From: a virus
Strand: one strand, 5' to 3'
Virus record (IMG/VR): IMGVR_UViG_3300047473_000009
Location: 1 to 48,885 of that record
DNA length: 48,885 nucleotides
Below, in pieces: positions 8,444-39,731 of this stretch (within the stretch, counting starts at the first letter, position 1; each line of letters opens with the position of its first letter). The notes under the pieces are model-generated. The model did not search any database. It saw only the letters and a program-made list of their open reading frames with translations, and had not been told where the DNA came from. The position numbers and the translations under genes were made by a program.

Positions 8444-8896
8444 ATGGATGTAGCTTCAAATGAACTTCAAAGTTATGGAATGCGATCTAAAATAATTCAA
8501 TTTGAGGAGTTTGCTAAGCTTCAACTGCAATTAGATTTAAAGGTAAATCATCATTTTTCTTACGGTGTCTACGCAAGAGAGCTTTTTATTCCTGCTGACA
8601 CTATTCTTACAGGCGAAATACACAAATTTAGTAATTTAAATATTCTGATAAAAGGCAAAATCAAAGTTTCAATTGCTGATAAAATCGAAATTATGGAAGC
8701 CCCTTTTGTTGTTGTTTCGCCACCCGGCACTAAACGAATTGCCCACACTATTACAGATTGCATTTGGCTAACAATTCACGGGACGCATGAAACTAACGTT
8801 GACAAAATTAAAGAAATGTTTATAGCCAATTCTGAAAAGGATTGGCTTGAATTTTCAAACGTTAATCAATTGGAGTTACCTCTTTGGCATGGGTAG
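8444..8896 (+). CDS. cupin-like phage protein (150 aa)
   Basis: ATG follows TTTAGGAGCCTGATAT. The core YARELFIPADTILTGEIHKF, then SNLNILIKGKIKV and a PFVVVSPPGTKRIAHT strand, is the double-stranded beta-helix pattern seen in small phage cupin-type proteins. C-terminal to it is WLTIHGTHETNVDKIKEMF. The metal-binding histidines of enzyme cupins are only partly present (H in GEIHKF, H in RIAHT), so a structural or sensor role is as likely as catalysis. It sits between neck and ejection genes, as in many P22-like phages. Confidence 0.7.
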   Translation: MDVASNELQSYGMRSKIIQFEEFAKLQLQLDLKVNHHFSYGVYARELFIPADTILTGEIHKFSNLNILIKGKIKVSIADKIEIMEAPFVVVSPPGTKRIAHTITDCIWLTIHGTHETNVDKIKEMFIANSEKDWLEFSNVNQLELPLWHG

Positions 8897-31050: not shown

Positions 31051-33336
31051 ATGAATAATTTCGATCGCATTCCGAGCGAGCTTAAAGAGTTACGTCAATG
31101 GATACTTTGGAAAAAGGAGATACTTGAGAATGGCAAAACAACCAAGATACCATATTCTACATTTCATACTCTCGCTAGCGTCACAAATCCTAACGATTGG
31201 TCTACTTTCGATAATGTTGTTCACTGTTATAGTGTTGGTGGATATGATGGTATAGGTTTTGTTTTTACTAGTGGTGATCCTTATGCCTTTATTGATTTAG
31301 ATATTAAAGAAAATCAGGAGCCATCAGAAGTTCAAAAGCAAATCTATTCTGAATTTGATACATACTCTGAATATAGTCCGTCCGGTCGCGGTCTACATCT
31401 AATTATCAAAGGATCTATACCAAAAGGATTAAATTACGGTAGCATAGAACTTTATTCTAATCTTCGCTATGCTACTATGACCGGCAACGTATTAGTTGAT
31501 AAGCCAATAGCCGATAAGCATGACTTGCTCAATCAGCTTTTTCAGCAGATGGAAAAAGAAAGATCAAAGGGAAAGTCCAACACAAATACAGTTAGTGGTG
31601 AAGAAACTCAAAGTGACGAAGCGATATTAGAACTAGCATTTAAACACAATTCAGAAAAGTTTGTTCCTTTATCGTTAGGAGAGTGGCGAGGTTCTTATCC
31701 TTCACAATCTGAAGCCGATCAAGCCTATATGAATATTATAGGCTATTACACTAACAACAAAGAACAAGTTGTTCGCATATATTCTAAATCAGAACTAGCT
31801 AAAACAGATAAAAAACGCAAGACAACCGCTTATCTTAATCGTACAGTAAATAAGGCGTTTGATCAAAAGCTTTCAAATGTTGTCTTTGAAGGTTATGATC
31901 AAAATAGTGGTCCCGTAGCTCAGCGGTCAGAGCCAATCGCTCATAACGGTTTGGTCGCAGGTTCAAATCCTGCCGGGACTACCAATAGTCAGACTATCGA
32001 ACCGCCTCCCGGCTTAGTAGGAGACATAGCAAAATTTATATATGGTGCTGCCCCGCGTCCTGTACCTGAAATCGCTATTGGTGCAGCTATTGGTTTGATG
32101 GCTGGTATTTGTGGGAAGGCTTATAATTTTATTGATACCGGCTTAAATCTTTACGTTATGTGTCTTGCTAAAACAGGACGTGGTAAAGAAGCTATGGCGT
32201 CTGGTATAGATAAGCTTATTAATGAAGTTCAAAAGCAAGTTCCTGTCGCTGCTGAATTTATTGGACCTGCTGAAATAGCATCAGGACAAGCTCTGGTTAA
32301 GTATGTAGCAAATAAATCTTCATGTTTTGTATCAGTGCTTGGCGAGTTTGGCATTAGGCTACAATTGATGGCCGATCCTCGTTCTAACAGCGCGGAAAAG
32401 ACATTACAAAAAACATTGCTAGAGCTTTATCAAAAATCTGGCTATGGACAAATCATGCGTTCTAGCATTTTTGCTGATAAAGATAAAAACACAAGTGACA
32501 CAACAGCGCCAGCTTTTTCAATTCTTGCAGAAGGAACACCTGAAACTGTATATGAGGCTGCTGATGAAAAGATGATCTTGAGTGGTCTATTGCCGCGATT
32601 TATTATATTAGATTATGACGGCGACAGGCAATTTTTGAATAAAAATCGTAACGCAAAGCCTAACGACAAATTAGTAAATGATATCGCTATGCTAATGAGT
32701 AATGCAAAAACACTCATGGCAAACAATACTGTTAAATATGTTCAATCTGATGAAGAGACTTCTCAATTATTAGACGACTACGATAAGCTTACTACAAATA
32801 GAATTAATTCAAAAGAAGAACATCGCGCGATTATTGAACTGTGGAATAGAGCGCACATTAAAGTTGTAAAGTTAGCTTCTCTGGTAGCGATTGGTATCGA
32901 TGCCCACAATCCGGTTATCAATAAAGATATATTTCTTTGGGCTAAGCAAATAGTTGAAATGGGGATTTTTACATTGGCTAAGAAGTTTGAAACCGGCGAT
33001 GTTGGCATATCATCTAATGAGATAAAACAGACTGATGAAATGACTAGAATTTTGAAAGAATATGTTGAAAAGGATTTCAGTTACGTCGCTAAATATAATG
33101 CAACTCAGTCTTTGCATACTTCCAAAATTGTTTGTAATACCTATCTTAGCTTGAGATTAACTAAGATGGCAGCTTTTAGAAATGATAGACTTGGTGGAAC
33201 TTCTGCATTGAAACGAACTATACAAATTATGATTGATAATGGTGTTTTAAAGTTAGTTGGCGGTCCCGAGTTTCAGGAGCGACACAAGATCACTGGTAAA
33301 GCTTATCATATTAATACAAGCATTTTATCCAAATAG
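31051..33336 (+). CDS. primase-helicase with a tRNA inside its reading frame
   Basis: The product has 761 aa. The N-terminal part has the archaeo-eukaryotic primase pattern of phage NrS-1-type proteins: F-I-D-L-D-I-K (catalytic aspartates), YSEYSPSGRGLHLIIKG, and IELYSNLRYATMTGN, to about residue 180. A middle linker contains the translated tRNA (residues 287-311, PVAQRSEPIAHNG...). The C-terminal part (from about 320) has a phage helicase-like ATPase region with Walker-A-like AKTGRGKEAM and an FVSVLGEFG segment. It would make primers and unwind at the origin candidate just downstream. Confidence 0.8.
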   Translation: MNNFDRIPSELKELRQWILWKKEILENGKTTKIPYSTFHTLASVTNPNDWSTFDNVVHCYSVGGYDGIGFVFTSGDPYAFIDLDIKENQEPSEVQKQIYSEFDTYSEYSPSGRGLHLIIKGSIPKGLNYGSIELYSNLRYATMTGNVLVDKPIADKHDLLNQLFQQMEKERSKGKSNTNTVSGEETQSDEAILELAFKHNSEKFVPLSLGEWRGSYPSQSEADQAYMNIIGYYTNNKEQVVRIYSKSELAKTDKKRKTTAYLNRTVNKAFDQKLSNVVFEGYDQNSGPVAQRSEPIAHNGLVAGSNPAGTTNSQTIEPPPGLVGDIAKFIYGAAPRPVPEIAIGAAIGLMAGICGKAYNFIDTGLNLYVMCLAKTGRGKEAMASGIDKLINEVQKQVPVAAEFIGPAEIASGQALVKYVANKSSCFVSVLGEFGIRLQLMADPRSNSAEKTLQKTLLELYQKSGYGQIMRSSIFADKDKNTSDTTAPAFSILAEGTPETVYEAADEKMILSGLLPRFIILDYDGDRQFLNKNRNAKPNDKLVNDIAMLMSNAKTLMANNTVKYVQSDEETSQLLDDYDKLTTNRINSKEEHRAIIELWNRAHIKVVKLASLVAIGIDAHNPVINKDIFLWAKQIVEMGIFTLAKKFETGDVGISSNEIKQTDEMTRILKEYVEKDFSYVAKYNATQSLHTSKIVCNTYLSLRLTKMAAFRNDRLGGTSALKRTIQIMIDNGVLKLVGGPEFQERHKITGKAYHINTSILSK
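31909..31984 (+). tRNA. tRNA(CAU), Met or Ile2-type, inside the primase-helicase ORF
   Basis: It has 76 nt with encoded CCA. The acceptor GGTCCCG pairs with CGGGACT (one G-T). The D arm is GCTC/GAGC. The anticodon stem AATCG/CGGTT encloses loop CTCATAA, with anticodon CAT. The T arm is GCAGG-TTCAAAT-CCTGC. All arms are canonical, so it is likely functional. It lies in sense orientation in a continuously open protein frame. CAU could be elongator Met or lysidine-modified Ile. Confidence 0.92.
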
Positions 33337-39549: not shown

Positions 39550-39621
39550 GAGGGACGTAGCATAATGGTAGTGCGTCACTCGTGGGAGTGGAGGATGTGC
39601 GTTCAAGTCGCACCGTTCCTC
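39550..39621 (+). tRNA. tRNA-His-like (GTG) with a shortened 6-nt anticodon loop
   Basis: Acceptor AGGGACG (39551-39557) pairs with CGTTCCT (39614-39620), D stem GCA/TGC with AATGGTA loop, and T arm GTGCG-TTCAAGT-CGCAC. The G at 39550 opposite C at 39621 is the G-1:C73 identity pair of tRNA-His. The anticodon stem TCACT/AGTGG encloses only CGTGGG, so the U33 position appears lost. No CCA is encoded. It may be a decayed tRNA or a tRNA-like RNA. Confidence 0.7.
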
Positions 39622-39731
39622 GCTTATCGGGTAGCTGCTAAGGAGCAGAGCAAGTAAAACGAGGCGTCGATCCCACGCCTATTGTCCACAAGCCGGATAT
39701 TGCTACCGGCAACTTATTTAAAAGGTTTGAA

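Follow-up and report, generated by a model that had tools for sequence, protein, structure and literature searches.

A tRNA gene within the reading frame of a phage primase-helicase, and its probable dual use as RNA and as codons

The stretch of DNA analysed here, which we call the window, comprises the 48,885 nucleotides of IMG/VR virus record IMGVR_UViG_3300047473_000009. It encodes a primase-helicase whose two parts are joined by a linker, and a whole tRNA gene lies in frame within that linker. Of about 130 distinct primase ORFs, 19, including that of the window, have a single tRNA or a pair of tRNAs on the sense strand at this linker. On the sequence evidence we consider it probable that this DNA is used twice, being translated as the linker of the fused protein and, in some transcripts, processed to a tRNA.

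A tRNA(CAU) in the interdomain linker

The gene is a continuous ORF of 761 amino acids on the plus strand (31051–33336), encoding an NrS-1-like primase-polymerase followed by an AAA+ helicase with an MCM-like fold. Because the protein matches the phrog_3022 DNA primase family from end to end (residues 2–743, E = 6e-203) and aligns over 99% of its length with proteins of cultured siphophages (Septimatrevirus, KL1, Halfdan and XAJ2; 41–42% identity), both halves belong to one real gene. The N-terminal half matches the PDB NrS-1 primase profile (E = 6e-44), with a Foldseek match to the primase part at E = 1e-14, and the primase part ends in the NrS-1 polymerase helical bundle domain (PF22763, E = 2.5e-8; residues 219–272; 31705–31866, plus strand), identifying this half as an NrS-1-type primase-polymerase. 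The helicase part runs from the motif PPGLVGDI onward (32005–33333, plus strand). It matches MCM AAA+ ATPases by Foldseek (E = 6e-7) and DUF3987 at residues 478–636 with 26.5 bits, slightly below the 27-bit cut-off; together with the full-length phrog_3022 match, these results identify the C-terminal half as an AAA+ helicase. An AlphaFold model (43-row alignment, mean pLDDT 88) has a single long low-confidence stretch, residues 277–313 (pLDDT <50; 31879–31989, plus strand), a predicted disordered interdomain linker that varies in length among relatives. The residues encoded by the tRNA, 287–312, fall inside it.

ARAGORN labels positions 31909–31984 (plus strand, 76 nt) as tRNA-Met(CAT) with exactly this span, and Rfam RF00005 matches 31909–31981 with 64.4 bits (E = 8e-12, cut-off 29). 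All four stems are paired, with G1–U72 and U29–G41 as wobbles, and the sequence includes A73 and encodes CCA. The first-pass annotation had described a complete tRNA(CAU) with canonical arms and encoded CCA, lying sense-strand in an uninterrupted frame of 761 codons; the two programs agree on the tRNA, its four stems pair, and the ORF has no internal stop. The anticodon CAU (31942–31944, plus strand) sits in the loop CUCAUAA, which is unchanged in 13 of 13 aligned relatives.

A CAU anticodon is found here in a tRNA of the elongator Met or Ile2 type. In the CAU tRNAs of this set, positions 1 and 72 are paired (G–U, G–C or A–U) and the GGG/CCC run at 29–31/39–41 is absent; by these features the window tRNA is not an initiator tRNA-fMet. 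Of the Ile codons used in the window, 27% are AUA, a usage that fits Ile2 identity, although only as a hint. Read as codons, the tRNA specifies residues 287–312, GPVAQRSEPIAHNGLVAGSNPAGTTN, with the next two bases completing the last residue, and a predicted tryptic peptide from this protein is SEPIAHNGLVAGSNPAGTTNSQTIEPPPGLVGDIAK. A second tRNA-like gene in the window (39550–39623, plus strand; 48.5 bits) is intergenic and has a shortened anticodon loop with no readable anticodon (ARAGORN 'tg'); it is possibly decaying or unusual.

tRNAs at the same linker in relatives

The primase ORFs compared came nearly all from virus contigs, through virus-contig scans and one genome scan (118 ORFs, including L213, a partial duplicate, and 14 more). 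Every case of the arrangement is on a metagenomic virus contig. The 19 ORFs hold 29 tRNAs, every one on the sense strand. CAU occurs alone in the window, its nearest relative L126, L009, L013 and L079, and Gln(UUG) alone in L010 and L492. The two stand in tandem as CAU then Gln (L017, L021, L027, L098, L106, L108 and L114) or as Gln then CAU (L012, L018 and L030). A Tyr tRNA is present in L044 and a Leu tRNA in L048. Rfam scores at the first 12 loci ranged from 48 to 72 bits, and the tandem pairs are separated by anything from a 1-base overlap (L018, 4948–5096) to 25 bases (L098, 6847–7021). Within the 14 tRNA-bearing records searched with ARAGORN, all CAU and Gln tRNAs found were inside the primase gene, and several records had no further tRNA above the cut-off. 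L013 also carries a 140-nt tRNA resembling Leu(UAA) (8731–8870, plus strand; Rfam 36.1 bits) that ARAGORN missed, with a long insertion in the anticodon arm and variable region containing GTTGCAAC twice.

In the cultured relatives examined we found no tRNA in the linker, and our searches found no cultured phage that spans both the tRNA peptide and the helicase. Bacterial genomes likewise yielded no tRNA in the gene where the alignment covered most of the protein (80 relatives kept). A scan by DNA pattern returned mostly unrelated contigs in which spurious frames run over tRNA arrays. Long spurious frames of that kind are common over tRNA arrays in some tRNA-rich contigs, and could suggest that the present arrangement is an assembly chimera or a frame open by chance. 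However, the GC content here is 42%, both flanks align in the same frame to one protein family, and the arrangement recurs in 19 differing contigs, which makes an artefact extremely unlikely.

Relatives without a tRNA have a linker at the same place, of similar length and of unrelated sequence. The first-pass annotation had named relatives with the same protein linker written in non-tRNA codons as part of what would speak against it; the outcome was the opposite, the tRNA-free relatives carrying a different linker peptide. Two ORFs have irregularities of another sort. The tRNA-free primase ORF of L374 (whose protein region is the same as that of L452) has one in-frame stop after residue 441, in the helicase part, which may reflect a sequencing error or a gene that is broken. 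Several ORFs make up the split primase gene of L008 (2998–5682, the Pseudomonas phage PSV3 record), perhaps owing to sequence errors.

On a tree of 115 rows, made by a quick method without bootstrap and before L492 was found, a single clade of 29 rows (SH-aLRT 99) takes in 17 of the 18 ORFs with a tRNA known at that point, together with 12 ORFs without one; the Leu-bearing L048 lies outside it. Presence of the tRNA requires at least ten gains or losses. About a dozen clade members have no linker tRNA, and in no record searched does a CAU or Gln tRNA occur elsewhere, which makes the tRNA dispensable. This patchy presence, with at least ten changes on the tree, together with the close pair L013/L381, in which other linker DNA stands in place of the tRNA, would also be expected if recombination had recently brought in the tRNAs as passive passengers that the linker only tolerates.

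The pattern of change within the tRNAs argues against passengers. Across the 13 CAU tRNAs, 99.3% of pair cells are standard and 17 of 21 pairs show two-sided changes, with 50 such cells against 14.7 in shuffles (0 of 500); none of the 500 shuffles approached the CAU tRNAs on any pairing measure. The 11 Gln tRNAs behave in the same way, with 98.7% paired, 17 of 21 pairs altered in both partners, and 62 two-sided cells. The anticodon loop, T-loop and CCA are conserved in both sets, and in the aligned CAU tRNAs CCA, T54-T55-C56, U8 and U33 do not change. Between the window and its nearest relative the tRNA is identical at 75 of 76 positions, whereas identity is 64% and 70% in the two flanking parts of the gene and 50–52% at third codon positions. 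These compensatory changes and the near-identity of the tRNA amid diverged flanks show that selection acts on the tRNA itself, clearly so on its fold, its anticodon and the CCA. Compensatory change reaching deep into all four stems, and a tRNA held nearly constant amid strong divergence, as under long-term selection, leave the idea of passive passengers quite improbable.

Selection on structure could also be explained if the insert were an element of the mRNA alone, a ribosome pause or RNA stability device with no working tRNA. Its site is exactly at the domain boundary, where pausing could aid folding, and the region is more stably folded than shuffles (z −2.4). For a pause, however, there would be no need to keep the anticodon loop CUCAUAA, the T-loop and CCA invariant, nor for the tRNA to be freely CAU, Gln, Tyr or Leu, and most relatives lack the structure. 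We consider such an element unlikely.

Predicted translation through the tRNAs and possible excision from the message

No in-frame stop occurs in any of the 19 tRNA-bearing frames. All 29 tRNAs are in an open codon phase, and 22 of the 29 have no other open phase. The window tRNA begins on codon position 1, its only stop-free phase, since the other two are closed by UAG (U8-A9-G10) and UAA (U36-A37-A38). The remaining CAU tRNAs also use phase 0, except in L108 (75 nt, one base shorter; phase 1) and L009 (77 nt; phase 2), where the shifted phase is the only open one of each; Gln tRNAs use phase 2, and in the tandem pairs the phase is kept despite variable spacing. Phage tRNAs taken at random and read in a random phase are open in 42% of cases. 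The naive chance of open phases for the first 28 tRNAs is 6e-12, a value that is too small because the relatives share ancestry; with ten changes on the tree and the background rate of 0.42, the chance is about 2e-4. Most of the tRNAs have a length that does not divide by three, so the flanking DNA must have changed to suit, as expected under selection for translation of the full-length protein. That the protein tolerates a tRNA-coded linker, one of two outcomes put forward in the first-pass annotation, is strongly supported: the linker is disordered and variable in length, the frame is open in 19 of 19 cases, and in relatives that lack the tRNA an ordinary linker occupies this place.

The other outcome put forward there was that tRNA processing separates the two activities, excision dividing the mRNA into parts that yield the primase and the helicase as individual proteins. 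An RNase P cut at the folded tRNA would indeed fall at the boundary between the two domains. However, the window offers no in-frame start until 38–39 codons past the tRNA, within the helicase domain, no start codon after the tRNA is conserved among relatives, and no stop closes the primase part before it. The open phase, kept in 19 of 19, would be unneeded for separate proteins, and tRNA-free relatives encode the fused protein. We therefore regard production of two proteins in this way as very unlikely, and that earlier suggestion as unsupported.

Dual use of the same DNA would instead give one primase-helicase transcript two alternative fates. If translated, the tRNA sequence would be read as 25–26 codons and yield a flexible linker between primase and helicase. 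If free of ribosomes, it would be expected to fold as a tRNA, be cut by RNase P at 31909 and have the encoded CCA as its matured 3' end. The phage would then gain a tRNA for AUA codons, if of the Ile2 type, or for AUG codons, if of the Met type. Cleavage of some transcripts is likely, and would destroy the mRNA rather than yield two mRNAs: the cut message would be lost for protein, because the 5' piece has no stop and the 3' piece no start. The yields of tRNA and of primase-helicase would thus compete.

Two other routes to a free tRNA or an intact message were considered. A dedicated tRNA promoter was rejected, as no promoter immediately upstream of the tRNA is conserved across relatives and the 9/12 match in the window is at the level of shuffles; without one, tRNA output would depend on cutting of the mRNA. 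Splicing the tRNA out of the message was rejected too, since single inserts are 76, 74, 77 and 88 nt long, not multiples of three, and the rejoined frame in the window would meet TAG after ten codons. We can speculate further that the embedded tRNA is a switch, in which ribosome load on the mRNA sets the balance between replication enzyme and tRNA supply, RNase P cleavage giving tRNA at the cost of replication protein; this extension of the dual-use reading is possible but doubtful.

Comparison with known systems

The closest known proteins are the primase-polymerase/helicase of phage NrS-1 (PDB 6a9w, 7rr3) and the replicative primases of Septimatrevirus, Kilunavirus KL1 and Halfdan, which share the family and domain order of the window gene. 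Unlike the window gene, the cultured NrS-1-type relatives examined have a linker without a tRNA. Phage-encoded tRNA genes, as in T4, T5 and many others, normally lie between genes or in tRNA clusters. They resemble the window tRNA in being complete, with CCA encoded, and in serving AT-rich codons, but are not normally placed within a conserved reading frame. We know of no precedent for entire tRNA genes being translated in frame as part of a conserved protein, and found the same arrangement nowhere in the open-access papers that made up most of our literature coverage, subscription journals lying mostly outside it.

Real genes of this kind can be overlooked or broken up by annotation pipelines, which regard peptides encoded by tRNAs as artefacts. 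The arrangement also raises the question of how the cell chooses between translating the message and cutting out the tRNA.

Sequences with a dual use as RNA and protein are of a known general kind. Rickettsia palindromic elements are selfish repeats inserted in frame in protein genes and, like the window tRNA, are RNA-folding DNA tolerated in flexible parts of proteins; the insert here differs in being a selected tRNA at one fixed site. Overlaps between mitochondrial tRNA and protein genes are partial. In these overlaps and in dual-function RNAs such as SgrS, as here, one sequence is both RNA and mRNA, whereas in the present genes one or two whole tRNAs are predicted to be translated as an internal linker. 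If a replication enzyme indeed takes some of its codons from a complete tRNA gene, this would be an extreme form of dual coding, with a structured RNA and a protein frame selected in the same letters across 19 relatives and four types of tRNA.
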